Source of the DNA: Pseudofrankia sp. DC12
Lineage (GTDB): Bacteria > Actinomycetota > Actinomycetes > Frankiales > Frankiaceae
Direction: 5' to 3'
Assembly: GCF_000966285.1 (NCBI RefSeq)
Contig: NZ_KQ031391.1
Location: 1-64,000, forward strand
DNA length: 64,000 nt
The notes under the pieces were generated by a model. That model saw nothing but the letters and a program-made list of their open reading frames with translations. It was not told the origin of the DNA and ran no database searches. The position numbers and the translations under genes are program-made. Shown here one piece after another: positions 34,184 through 38,390 of the stretch (position 1 is its first letter; each line of letters opens with the position of its first letter).

Positions 34184-35719
34184 TCAGTCGGCGGCGACCC
34201 CGGCCTGGGCCGCCACATCGCGGCCGCGCTTCCCGGACCCGCTCAGATCCTTACCAGCGGCCCCGATGACATCGCCGCCTACACCGCCACACTCGACCGC
34301 GCCGACGTTCTCGTCGAGCCGATCTGAAGTCCGTCGACCGCCGCCGGGGCGTCGGCGCGCCGTCAGGAGAGCCACCGCGACCCGCGGCACTCGGCGGGAG
34401 ATCCGGAGCAGCATGACGATCATTCCGGCGGCCGGCAACGCGACCAGGACCATGCTGACGGCCCCGGCGAGTGCGGCGACCACCTCTCCGCTGGACAGTG
34501 CCCGGCACACCTGGCTGAACTCGCCGCGCACCGCCGAGGCCGTCCGGGGCAGCACGAAGGGCGCGTAGACCACCACCATGACGAGGTTGACCACGATCAC
34601 CGGTCCGGCGAACAGCGCCCAGGCGGTCACCATGACCTGGGCCCGTCTGGTCAGGCCGGCCAGCGGCGGATTCGGGGCCGATCTCGTGCCTGGCCGAGCT
34701 CGCCGCCGGAACGGGATCGCGCGCGCCGCCGCCCGGGCCGCCGAGCGCATGGCCGGACCCATTCGGTCGAACAGGTCCGGCACCCCGACGAGATCGCTGA
34801 CGACGTAGTAACCGTCCAGCCGGACGAACGGTGCGAGCTGCCGCACCGCGTCCAGGTGAACGAGGACCGCGGCTGTCACGAGCACCTCGGCCCGGGTGAT
34901 GGCGAACGCGCCGATGACGAGCAGCGCGAAGATCCCGTTGAAGTAGACACCCCCCAGGTCGGTGCGCAGCCGCCCCCGGCGAGGCAGCCGGTAGGAGTCG
35001 GTGACGTCGGTGAAGAAGGCCGGCCAGACGAGGTACATGCCGACGCCGATCACACCCGGCCGCGCACCGCCGTAGCGGCAGGCCGCCGCGTGGCCGCACT
35101 CGTGGAACAACGCGCAGACGAGGGTCAGCCCGACCAGCGCCAGGATCATCCACGGGGTGGCCAGCACCGCGGCCGCGCTGTCCCGGGCGCTGTGCCGACC
35201 GAACAGCCAGACATCGGCGGACACCAGCCCGGCCAGCAGGACTGCCATGGCCGCCGGCCGGAAGAGCACCGCGAGCGCCCCGCTGATCCGGTGGACGACC
35301 GGCGCGGGCAGCAGGGTCCGCCTGCCGGCGAGCAGCAGCAGCGAGTTCGCCCGCGGCGCGGGGGTGACCCCGGTCGGGGCGGCGATCAGACCGAGCGGCA
35401 TGAGCCGGTGCGCCAGCAGGTACGCGACGTCGTCGCCGCTCACCTGGCGACCGCAGCGCGTCCCGGCGTGCCCGGCGATCGCGGCGAGGTCGCGGCTGCC
35501 GTCCGCCGCCTCGAGGATCCGCGCGAGCAGCTCGGTGAGCGCCACGGCCTGGCCGTCGGCCCGACGCGCCAGGAAGACGGGCCGCGCGAGGCCCGACCCG
35601 GCGAACTCGCCGAGCAACGCCAGGCCGTCGGCCCGGACCGGCCGGGCGGGCAGCGCGGCCCGACCCGGCTCGGCGCTGCCCGCGCCTGCTGACGCGTGCG
35701 GGAGCGCGGGCTCGTTCAT
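34184..35719 (-). CDS. M50-family membrane metalloprotease with N-terminal RRE-like domain
   Basis: The protein has 511 residues from ATG 35719, with GAGAGGA seven bases upstream. Residues ~45-115 look like a PqqD-type RiPP recognition element (LTELLARILEAADGSRDLAAIAGH ... VSGDDVAYLLAHRLMPLGLI). Several membrane helices follow, with zinc motif HECGH (about residues 204-208) at the end of one and a RLDGYY-VVSDLVGVPDL segment (about 297-313) for the third ligand, as in the peptide zinc metalloproteases of RiPP loci. It would bind leader peptides through the RRE and cleave in the membrane. Two precursor-like genes lie directly upstream on the same strand. The last ~50 residues are low-complexity and may be an accidental extension. 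Confidence 0.82.
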   Translation of the reverse strand: MNEPALPHASAGAGSAEPGRAALPARPVRADGLALLGEFAGSGLARPVFLARRADGQAVALTELLARILEAADGSRDLAAIAGHAGTRCGRQVSGDDVAYLLAHRLMPLGLIAAPTGVTPAPRANSLLLLAGRRTLLPAPVVHRISGALAVLFRPAAMAVLLAGLVSADVWLFGRHSARDSAAAVLATPWMILALVGLTLVCALFHECGHAAACRYGGARPGVIGVGMYLVWPAFFTDVTDSYRLPRRGRLRTDLGGVYFNGIFALLVIGAFAITRAEVLVTAAVLVHLDAVRQLAPFVRLDGYYVVSDLVGVPDLFDRMGPAMRSAARAAARAIPFRRRARPGTRSAPNPPLAGLTRRAQVMVTAWALFAGPVIVVNLVMVVVYAPFVLPRTASAVRGEFSQVCRALSSGEVVAALAGAVSMVLVALPAAGMIVMLLRISRRVPRVAVALLTARRRPGGGRRTSDRLDENVGAVECGGVGGDVIGAAGKDLSGSGKRGRDVAAQAGVAAD

Positions 35720-35807
35720 CGAACGTCCTCTCAGCGCCATGGTGATCCGCGCGGCGAGGCGCCCGACAGTGCCTGCTCGTCGACTGGCCTGTTCGTCGAA
35801 CCGGGAA

Positions 35808-36236
35808 TCACATACCGAACAGCCGCCGAATGAGATCCAGCCATTGACCGCCGCCTGGCTGTGCGCTCTCCGGGTGGAGATCGCTGCCAGGAGCGCTGGC
35901 GGCAGGCGAGTCGCCGGCGTGGTGCCCGGCGGCAAAGCTGTCCGGGCTCGACTGCTGGACTATGATGTTGATCGTCGGCATGAAGGTAATCACGACCGGC
36001 ATGTAGCCGCCGCTGACCTGCGGCTGCGAGACGGTGTTTACCACCGCATTGTTCGAAGCGGGCGATCCGATTGGGAAGTTGCTTGAAGTGGGCGAGTTGA
36101 CCGCGGCGTTGGTGGGGGAGAACCCATACCGGCTGGTCCCGACCGCGGCGAGCGTCGTCCGGTCGGGAAGCAGCTCCGCCCACTCGTCGGTCAGCTCTCC
36201 GCGATTGCCCCAGTGGTTCATGCCGGCGTCACTCAT
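35808..36236 (-). CDS. RiPP-precursor-like protein B
   Basis: The protein has 142 residues from ATG 36236, behind GGGGAGACGG. The N-terminus has ELTDEWAELLPDRTTLAAV, nearly the same as protein A. Then comes an Asn/Ser/Pro-rich segment with NAAVNSPTSSN and GSPASNNAVVNT, a hydrophobic stretch (PVVITFMPTINIIV), a Ser/Ala/Gly linker and a C-terminal amphipathic end (WLDLIRRLFGM). The conserved acidic N-terminal motif looks like a leader recognised by the RRE of the downstream protease. No signal peptide is present. The modified residues, if any, are unknown. It is longer than most RiPP precursors. Confidence 0.7.
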   Translation of the reverse strand: MSDAGMNHWGNRGELTDEWAELLPDRTTLAAVGTSRYGFSPTNAAVNSPTSSNFPIGSPASNNAVVNTVSQPQVSGGYMPVVITFMPTINIIVQQSSPDSFAAGHHAGDSPAASAPGSDLHPESAQPGGGQWLDLIRRLFGM

Positions 36237-36360
36237 TTCCGTCTCCCCGTAAAGTGCCTCCGCGACAGTCCTCAATGAGTGAGGCTAGCGGACCAGGGAA
36301 GGAGAGTGAAACATCTGCGCGGGCGTGTCGCCGAGCCGGGAATTTACTCCTGCCCGCCGG

Positions 36361-36621
36361 TCACCACTGGTTGAGGAAGGTGTCACCAAGGGCGACGGAA
36401 TTGATGTACGCACCGGCGTTGCCGATCGCCTGCACCATCGAGCTGTTGCCGGTGACGACGTTGTTGCTGGCCGGTGAGTTGACCGGTGAGTTGTTACCGG
36501 TACCCACGGACTGACCGTTCTGGAACACCATCAGCGTGATCCGGTCAGGCAAGAGCTCGACATATTCTGCCGCCAGCTCGGCCACGTCCATCCCGGGCCG
36601 GACTGTCTCCGTCAGATCCAT
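36361..36621 (-). CDS. RiPP-precursor-like protein A
   Basis: The protein has 86 residues from ATG 36621, behind GGTGGGG; the frame is open to 36873 but the extension is Arg/Pro-rich and has no better start. The presumed leader (VAELAAEYVELLPDRITLMV) matches protein B. The presumed core is rich in Asn, Ser, Gly and Val: GNNSPVNSPASNN, then VVTGNSSMVQAIGNAG and a terminal FLNQW. It has no Cys and few Thr, which argues against a classical lanthipeptide. It is followed by protein B (124 bp) and the RRE-M50 protease on the same strand, probably one transcript. Confidence 0.7.
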   Translation of the reverse strand: MDLTETVRPGMDVAELAAEYVELLPDRITLMVFQNGQSVGTGNNSPVNSPASNNVVTGNSSMVQAIGNAGAYINSVALGDTFLNQW

Positions 36622-37375: not shown

Positions 37376-37401
37376 GGGCGGAATCAAGCGGTCATGGCGA
37401 C
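37376..37401 (+). repeat. IS30 left terminal inverted repeat
   Basis: GGGCGGaATCAAgCGGTC followed by TGGCGAC; overlaps the transposase stop codon. It matches the right end in 21 of 26 positions. Confidence 0.85.
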
Positions 37402-38390
37402 ACATGACTTTCCAGCAGCTCGGTAAAGACCTCGAGCGGCGTCGCCCATTTGAGCGTCTGCCGTGGCCGCCCATTCAGCTGCGTGGCCACCATATCAAGT
37501 TCTTCCTGCGTGTGCAAGGACAGGTCGGTGCCCTTCGGGAAGTACTGGCGCAGCAACCCGTTGGTGTTCTCGTTCGAGCCGCGCTGCCACGGTGAGTGCG
37601 GGTCGCAGAAATACACGGGAATACCGGTGCGGACGGTGAAATCGGCGTGCCGGGCCATCTCCTTTCCCTGGTCCCAGGTCACCGAGTTCCGCATGAACTC
37701 GGGCAGGGTCTCCATCTTCTTGCCCAGCAGGTAGGCGACCTTGTCGGCGTTACGGTCGTACGGTATTCGCACCAACATCACGAACCGGGTCGTGCGCTCG
37801 ACCAGCGTGGCGATCTGCGACTTGTTGCCCTTCCCGATGATCAGGTCGCCCTCCCAGAAACCGGGGACGGCGCGGTCCTCGGCCTCCTTCGGCCGCTCGC
37901 TGATGTTGACCATGCCGACGATCCCGCCCCTGGTCAGGGTGCTGCGCGACCGGTTGACCCGCCTGGCCCGGCCCTTACGCAGCGCGATCTTCAGTTCCGT
38001 CCGCAGCTCGCCGCGCGCCTGGAGGTAGAGGCACTCGTAGATTGTTTCGTGGCTCACGCGCATGCTCTCGTCGTCGGGAAAGTCCGTGCGCAGTCTCTCG
38101 CTGATCTGCTTCGGCGACCACTTCTCGACCAGGCCGGTGTTCACCGCGTCGTGCAGCTCCTTCGACGCGACGAGTTTCCGTTCCTTCGGGCGGGCGCACA
38201 TCAGATCACACCGTGCCTGCGCATCCACCGCCCGATACGCCGCGGCACCGCCGTTACGCTCGATCTCCCGGGAGATCCCCGAATGATGACGACCGAGCAC
38301 AGCGGCGATATACCGAGCCGAACGCTCCTGACTCAACTCCCGCGAGATGACCTCGCGGTCCTCCACCGTCAACCGCTCCCGTACGCCCAT
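37392..38390 (-). CDS. IS30-family transposase
   Basis: The protein has 332 residues, full length for the family. An N-terminal HTH_38-type domain (LTVEDREVISRELSQERSARYIAAVLGRHHSGISREIERN) and a second HTH (WSPKQISERLRTDFPDD) precede the DDE catalytic core: first Asp in GFWEGDLIIGK, second Asp in SVTWDQGKEMARH, Glu in GSNENTNGLLRQYFPKGTDL. The gene ends inside the left terminal repeat. No frameshift is visible, so the element may be active. Confidence 0.95.
   Translation of the reverse strand: MGVRERLTVEDREVISRELSQERSARYIAAVLGRHHSGISREIERNGGAAAYRAVDAQARCDLMCARPKERKLVASKELHDAVNTGLVEKWSPKQISERLRTDFPDDESMRVSHETIYECLYLQARGELRTELKIALRKGRARRVNRSRSTLTRGGIVGMVNISERPKEAEDRAVPGFWEGDLIIGKGNKSQIATLVERTTRFVMLVRIPYDRNADKVAYLLGKKMETLPEFMRNSVTWDQGKEMARHADFTVRTGIPVYFCDPHSPWQRGSNENTNGLLRQYFPKGTDLSLHTQEELDMVATQLNGRPRQTLKWATPLEVFTELLESHVSP

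Follow-up and report, generated by a model that had tools for sequence, protein, structure and literature searches.

Three adjacent genes in a 64,000-nucleotide stretch of Pseudofrankia sp. DC12 (contig NZ_KQ031391.1, positions 1 to 64,000; hereafter, the window) encode two short peptides, A and B, that share an ELLPxR leader, and an intramembrane protease of the M50 family whose N-terminus resembles the RiPP recognition element (RRE) of pathways for ribosomally synthesized and post-translationally modified peptides (RiPPs). What the initial annotation of this locus described is real, and its extent is greater than proposed there: judged from sequence, leader and RRE-fused M50 protease make up a widespread chassis whose cores are exchangeable and with which no modifying enzyme recurs. 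We favor, at a probability of roughly two in three, a reading in which A, B, and the protease form a peptide-maturation module, with RRE-guided leader removal by the intramembrane protease and no dedicated modification. Gene conservation, the linkage between leader and protease, the RRE-like and site-2-protease (S2P)-like folds of structural models, and the lack of a widely recurring enzyme family all support it.

The genes lie on the minus strand in the order A, B, protease, with intergenic gaps of 124 and 88 nucleotides, in a 6.88 Mb host genome of the Frankia group. Their features, with the evidence for each, are the following.

36361–36621, minus strand: peptide A precursor, 86 residues, a leader and an Asn/Ser/Pro-rich core (translation; homologs next to M50 genes in the Frankia group; ratio of nonsynonymous to synonymous substitution rates, dN/dS).
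36532–36621, minus strand: leader of A, residues 1–30, ending in ELLPDRITL (alignment A1).
35808–36236, minus strand: peptide B precursor, 142 residues (translation; alignment A2; dN/dS).
36150–36236, minus strand: leader of B, residues 1–29, ending in ELLPDRTTL (alignment A2).
34184–35719, minus strand: predicted RRE-fused M50 intramembrane protease, 511 residues (fold model; family matches; NCBIfam daptide_HExxH, 96 bits).
35372–35647, minus strand: predicted RRE-type domain, protease residues 25–116 (AlphaFold2 model and structure alignment).
34412–35329, minus strand: predicted S2P-like membrane domain, protease residues 131–436 (structure alignment).
35090–35104, minus strand: HECGH zinc motif, protease residues 206–210 (invariant in aligned relatives).
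34814–34816, minus strand: presumed third zinc ligand, D302 in LDGYY (invariant in aligned relatives).

Translation bears out the coordinates, the shared leader block, and the Asn/Ser/Pro segments that the initial annotation gave for A and B: the leader segment of A, VAELAAEYVELLPDRITL, is followed by NNSPVNSPASNN, and that of B, GELTDEWAELLPDRTTL, by NAAVNSP and SPASNN. Peptide B also contains a hydrophobic stretch. The A leader is invariant at L16, A17, E19, E22, L23, L24, P25, and R27 across the 21 rows of alignment A1, and the B leader at E18, E21, L22, L23, P24, and R26 across alignment A2, which took 14 of 16 B peptides, those of loci L078 and L081 having been missed by the gene caller. 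A second-round leader hidden Markov model (HMM), which had A and B among its rows and includes first-round matches, was run against the 596 open reading frames (ORFs) of the window; only A and B match below E 0.5, which argues that their shared leader is not due to chance. Between the window and four relatives per gene, dN/dS is 0.17–0.41 for A, 0.27–0.55 for B, and 0.34–0.50 for the protease. Scanned against Pfam and NCBIfam, the precursors matched no model at its cut-off. In one Frankia (L078:11267–12232), peptide B bears a long Asp/Tyr/Arg/Val-repeat tail, with X for part of the sequence.

An AlphaFold2 model of the protease, built from 50 sequences, has a mean predicted local distance difference test (pLDDT) of 88.4 and a predicted template modeling score (pTM) of 0.84, and was aligned with VIA to the 239 Protein Data Bank (PDB) chains ranked highest by Foldseek. 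Residues 25–116 align to five solved RRE proteins at Z-scores of 6.0–7.9, individually middling: the leader-bound lasso RRE TbiB1 (5v1u/5v1v; Z 7.9, 3.0 Å, 82–84 residues), PqqD (5sxy; Z 6.9, 90 residues), TruD (4bs9; Z 6.9), the heterocyclase 4v1t, which we take to be LynD (Z 6.6), and ThcOx (8pz5; Z 6.0). We assign an RRE because five different RRE proteins agree on one stretch and because the related protease MpaP has been described as an RRE-peptidase. The RRE that the initial annotation placed at residues 40–120 is thus recovered in the model, with a span, counted from the Met codon at 35719, that begins slightly upstream of the one proposed. Residues 131–436 align to the S2P of M. jannaschii (3b4r; Z 8.4), to RseP proteins (Z 7.7–8.2), and to SpoIVFB (Z 7.6). 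H206, E207, G209, H210, and D302 are invariant in the 50 sequences of alignment A4 (the window protease and 49 of 78 usable proteases); D302 is presumably the third zinc ligand, by its role in the M50 family. The Pfam M50 model scores below threshold on the protease, at 11 bits, and a PDB sequence search returned nothing at E ≤ 1. Together, the model and its alignments support an RRE-type fold fused to an M50 S2P-like domain, a combination already represented by the daptide protease MpaP.

To survey the wider family, 84,980 species genomes were scanned with two short peptide patterns, which gave 321 protease relatives, a lower bound because exact short patterns were required. The best 80 of the 321, a choice that favors close relatives, comprise 13 loci from Frankia, Pseudofrankia, or Protofrankia (the Frankia group) and 67 others, mostly from Streptomyces and kin and also from Rubrobacteraceae, Acidimicrobiaceae, Thermoleophilia, and Chloroflexi metagenome-assembled genomes (MAGs). 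Genes were called by a custom script, not a standard gene caller, and neighbors are named from their sequences unless Pfam is cited. As an independent test, a leader HMM built from 35 Frankia-group peptides alone was run on the other 67 loci, which hold 8,329 ORFs in all. At E ≤ 0.1 it found 78 matches in 43 loci, every one upstream of and co-directional with the protease (within 2.2 kb on the protease strand, a zone that makes up 7.4% of the sequence); upstream placement held for 84 of 85 matches at E ≤ 1 (47 loci) and for 97 of 107 at E ≤ 10. Shuffled ORFs gave 1, 3, and 10 matches at E ≤ 0.1, 1, and 10, none of them upstream. The proposal that the ELLPDRxTL leader would recur beside the same protease elsewhere is therefore sustained by 78 directly upstream matches that span genera and phyla. 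L156, a MAG labeled Frankiaceae among the 67 other loci, yielded no match to this first HMM at E ≤ 1. Run on 13 stretches that surround other M50 matches, some of them daptide ones, the second-round HMM matched a single ORF of 1,416, a long one, at E ≤ 0.1.

The second-round HMM, partly circular, located peptides in 62 of the 67 other loci, and four more loci were recognized by motif: L131, L155, L137 (LPAKE), and L179, where the peptides lie on the opposite strand. By HMM or motif, at least one leader peptide is present in 79 of the 80 loci (154 peptides in total) and two or more in 62; the exception is L157, whose contig ends 488 bases before the protease gene. Conservation of the chassis extends over many Actinomycetota and to Chloroflexota MAGs, and a protease at E ≤ 1e-60 is found in 8 of 119 sampled genomes of the phylum, the window genome included. 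Among 59 matching records in a plasmid scan, near-full-length relatives with 39% identity, similar to those of Streptomyces genomes, occur on two Streptomyces plasmids (NZ_CP107797.1:200308–201576 and NZ_CP102333.1:75003–76235), so the module may travel on plasmids. A phage origin was rejected: none of 35 pattern-matching stretches in IMG/VR encodes a protease relative.

Closer to the window, 25 of the 35 genomes of its GTDB family contain protease matches. Strong matches (E below 1e-70) occur in 19 genomes at 20 loci, one genome having two; 18 of these loci form alignment A3, and six further genomes hold distant matches only (E 9e-15 to 4e-7). The A and B pair accompanies the protease at 16 of the 20 strong loci (the window and 15 others), and at three, of Protofrankia type, a single 60-residue peptide joins the same leader to an unrelated hydrophobic core. 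The flanks vary among locus groups (dehydrogenase-like, NagB-like, a small membrane protein gene, and others, read from sequence), and the same set of A, B, and protease is found in several unrelated contexts, for which reason the module looks self-contained. The suggestion that a modification gene had been lost at the boundary of an IS30 element is for the same reason not needed, and the 15 other A and B loci, which show the same minimal gene set, do not support it.

37392–38390: IS30-type transposase gene (label from the initial annotation), upstream of the module.

The genome matches this transposase gene at 22 places: at 15 the copy is full length and near-identical, and the other 7 are fragments or relatives. 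Of four window neighbors scanned with Pfam, one each was recognized as an integrase, a transposase, and a phosphoribosyltransferase, and the fourth had no match.

Which other genes keep company with the module was surveyed by all-against-all BLAST of the genes called up to 6 kb from each of the 80 proteases, with 22 families listed. No enzyme family besides the protease occurs in more than 21 of the 80 neighborhoods. Beyond the peptides, the protease, and a partner protein, S, discussed below, a helix-turn-helix regulator is found in 43 loci and an 86-residue protein in 42; the 13 Frankia-group loci have neither. ABC ATPases lead the next family, which reaches 21 loci, and all remaining families reach at most 16. 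As the initial annotation had it for the locus, no known modifying enzyme goes with the module: none recurs widely in the 80 neighborhoods, and the neighbors of the unusual cores, judged from sequence starts, include no recognized RiPP enzyme. By the usual marks of a RiPP, a conserved leader with a variable core is present, an RRE-like domain is predicted from the model, and a modifying enzyme encoded with the precursor was not found. Of the earlier RiPP-like label, the leader and the RRE-type fold stand, but nothing points to a modification, and RiPP status itself is therefore not established. The helix-turn-helix regulator, mostly divergent, and the 86-residue-class protein (L119:6502–6897 and L119:6081–6284) perhaps regulate the module.

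At least five unlike cores are found behind the same leader. The commonest, in 62 of the 80 loci, is a unit of about 21 residues, NxAxAxNxxSxxSxAxxxAxQ; in alignment A7 (35 of 132 peptides), the leader L, P, and R and core N41, N47, A55, Q61, and Q67 of this common type are invariant, with the pattern NxAxAxNxxSxxSxAxxxAxQxxxIxQ. The two main core groups, from a grouping that left out 10 of 132 cores, each longer than 100 residues, align to each other by hhalign at 77% probability, against 1.7% for a reversed control. A His/Pro/Cys-rich core is found in L147 and a His/Gly/Asp-rich one in L175, and L162 and L172 bear two further unlike cores on the same leader. The leader peptides of L147:7328–7699 and L175:7345–7716 have long His-rich tails next to the protease, with possible metal binding. 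At least two tandem beta-arch-like cores follow one leader or leader-like start in L117:7411–7842, L116:4563 onward, and L137:543–1271, and small proteins with a similar N/A/V/Q repeat, lacking the ELLPxR leader, adjoin leader peptides at L118:7438–7680, L148:6816–7022, and L125:1834 onward.

In the wider family, the common core is tied to S, a protein with a signal-peptide-like start (by eye): 53 of the 67 other loci encode S near the protease, and none of the 13 Frankia-group loci does. In L137 and L173, two of the 53, S is fused to the protease C-terminus, and a third fusion, L089, is the one occurrence of S among the 35 genomes of the GTDB family (L137:1500–3875, L173:7770 onward, L089:1770–3923); these fusions link S and the protease functionally. 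S, of which 40 proteins make up alignment A6, has the repeat spacing of the core, with Cys replacing Ser: NVAIAINENCDTCVAVAEAYQ in S versus NAAVAANVLSDNSVAYANAEQ in the core. An HMM of the Streptomyces-type core run against 1,091 called proteins gave 29 matches at E ≤ 1, comprising 17 S proteins, 10 leader peptides missed by the filter, one further S, and one S-fused protease; shuffled proteins gave one match, not S. At E ≤ 10, S accounts for 34 of 53 matches versus 5 of 12 in shuffled proteins, and the HMM of the other core finds 4 S proteins in 18 matches at E ≤ 1, its 3 shuffled matches including none. Direct hhalign of the common cores with S is weak (E 0.025 and 0.0067, probability 2 and 6%; reversed, 0.096–0.43), and the clearer evidence for the likeness lies in the core HMM matches to S and the matching register. 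Arch-type cores occur 52 times with S and twice without, other cores never with S and 14 times without (Fisher 1e-12, related species being counted as independent, with 11 truncated loci and one locus without a visible peptide left out).

A model of S from L118 contains three strand-turn-strand repeats at residues 32–123, with block pLDDT ≥ 90 there and 75.5 overall. Foldseek placed FapC on the top row, a non-significant one (E 0.037, probability 0.04), and nothing at E ≤ 0.001; by VIA the rows are weak, the best being a urease accessory protein at Z 3.9. PDB sequence searches at E ≤ 10 gave 4 unrelated, non-significant rows for the peptides and 11 for S, with no curlin or Fap chain among them. 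The wider family shares with curli and Fap amyloids short cores of strand-turn-strand form in which the spacing of N, S, and Q is fixed, some in tandem, and an apparently secreted multi-rung relative, S, that could nucleate; unlike those systems, it has leader, RRE, and M50 in place of curli- or Fap-type secretion. A surface-fiber role in the wider family is accordingly offered as a bolder hypothesis, and a doubtful one: the RRE-guided protease might free single-rung beta-arch peptides that stack on secreted, three-rung S as a fiber or coat, a new route to an extracellular structure. It is similarly tentative that, were this so, the product would be structural and unmodified and the same chassis re-used for the other cores (Frankia A and B, hydrophobic, His-rich). 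For A and B the hypothesis carries no weight, because the Frankia cores resemble neither S nor the common core; a beta-arch unit in them was considered and found no support, hhalign of the A or B cores against other cores or S being no clearer than reversed controls.

From the maturation reading, a working model for the module can be drawn. The ELLPxR leader would act as an address tag, keeping the core inert and bringing it to the protease, where it would be bound by the N-terminal RRE domain, probably on the cytosolic side. The M50 domain would then cut the leader from the core in or at the membrane and the core would be released, presumably with no dedicated modifying enzyme taking part. 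The chassis of leader and RRE-M50 protease would be kept while the core is swapped, between Frankia A and B, Protofrankia hydrophobic 60-mers, His-rich tails, and a beta-arch-like unit with S.

Several observations weigh against this reading. Protease residues 25–116 also align, at Z 5.5–7.2, to the C-terminal parts of two carbamoyltransferases, GdmN and NovN, the RRE Z-scores are all below 8 and unrelated helical rows reach Z 7.0–7.5, Foldseek alone found no match to the protease model at E ≤ 0.001, and DNA-binding winged helices resemble RRE folds, according to the relevant part of PMC7470986. Enzyme-like families, by our own reading, recur in Streptomyces-type loci, namely a thiolase (15 of 80), a flavin adenine dinucleotide (FAD) monooxygenase (14), a short-chain dehydrogenase (11), and a cyclopropane-synthase-like methyltransferase (9); these are candidate partners, for which recurrence is weak evidence because close Streptomyces share such flanks. 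L089, the remaining one of the 20 strong loci, is a 3.9 kb contig of an incomplete genome (G016) on which the protease is without a leader peptide. Peptide A paralogs that keep its leader and contain Cys in their cores (L090:9649–9909, L091:9628–9888, L092:9945–10205) stand without a protease within the 20 kb examined, in the genome of the window and in two others, and a modifying enzyme might act in trans.

This last point leads to the alternative that survives best, a true RiPP in which an enzyme encoded at another site in the genome modifies the core, the local genes supplying precursors and a maturation protease. RREs are typical of RiPP pathways in the portions of PMC7470986 and PMC10036551 that treat them, the RRE-M50 protease is related to MpaP, and the A paralogs show that parts of the system can lie apart in a genome; we nonetheless consider it unlikely, given that no enzyme family exceeds 21 of 80 neighborhoods and that, with the minimal module in many contexts and very different cores, a single trans-acting enzyme would need to work on every one of these cores. 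Quite improbable is a two-peptide bacteriocin or signaling pair, in the manner of leader-bearing class II bacteriocins or epipeptides. At least two peptides in 62 of 80 loci, the hydrophobic Protofrankia core and hydrophobic stretch in B, and the processing of an antimicrobial peptide by EpeP (in the pertinent section of PMC10885120) favor such a pair; against it stand the dN/dS of about 0.2–0.55 among relatives, which is not that of rapid diversification, the lack of a recognized immunity gene and of any transporter family that exceeds 21 of 80 neighborhoods, and the Asn/Ala/Ser-repeat cores of most loci, tied to an apparently secreted partner. A further proposal sets the M50 protein in regulated intramembrane proteolysis, with the peptides as its inhibitors or sensors rather than its products. 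SpoIVFB and RseP, which share the S2P fold, act in signaling, and 43 of the 67 other loci have a helix-turn-helix regulator nearby, mostly divergent, but we hold this very unlikely, since exchangeable cores, His-rich tails, and tandem core copies are unlike inhibitors and the regulator family is absent from all 13 Frankia-group loci.

Among characterized systems, the module comes closest to daptides and epipeptides. Like daptides (MpaP, NF041824), it has an RRE fused to an intramembrane M50 protease and short precursors with a conserved acidic leader, and the portion of PMC10036551 on MpaP describes an RRE-peptidase fusion and RRE-dependent intramembrane leader removal. Unlike daptides, the protease scores 96 bits on NCBIfam daptide_HExxH against a cut-off of 300, lies at a tree distance of 4.8 from an MpaP-like protein versus at most 2.1 from six measured relatives (FastTree, used for distances and for the Frankia-group and Protofrankia clades alone), and is paired with an ELLPxR leader; no decarboxylase/aminotransferase/methyltransferase set recurs among the BLAST neighbor families, to which daptide HMMs were not applied, the one methyltransferase-like family occurring in 9 of 80 loci. 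As set out in one section of PMC10885120, M50 proteases also belong to epipeptide and pearlin systems, and cleavage and export are the presumed roles of EpeP. The module shares with epipeptides (YydH/LiaK/EpeP, NF058609) an M50 protease, which there matures a short peptide, and differs from them in a YydH/LiaK score of 42 bits against a cut-off of 225 and in the lack of a radical SAM family noticed among the shared neighbors, judged from sequences with no radical SAM HMM run. Membership in either family was rejected on the scores, with which gene content and the tree agree. Three of the distant matches in the GTDB family (L093, L094, and L095) are daptide-like loci with ELExxEAP-type leaders beside M50 and ABC transporter genes, distinct from the ELLPxR system, and in L094 and L095 the daptide-form precursors are in tandem. 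Protease-term passages of two RRE papers (PMC12710340 and PMC7470986) do not describe an ELLPxR/RRE-M50 family, and literature searches by topic and leader letters among open-licence papers found no description of one.

RREs serve as class-independent markers of RiPP pathways, as one part of PMC7470986 presents them. If this is truly a family without a modifying enzyme, an RRE can serve proteolysis alone, and genome mining with RREs would find more than modified natural products. For the wider family, the link between core type and S makes the hypothesis of surface assembly directly testable in Streptomyces.

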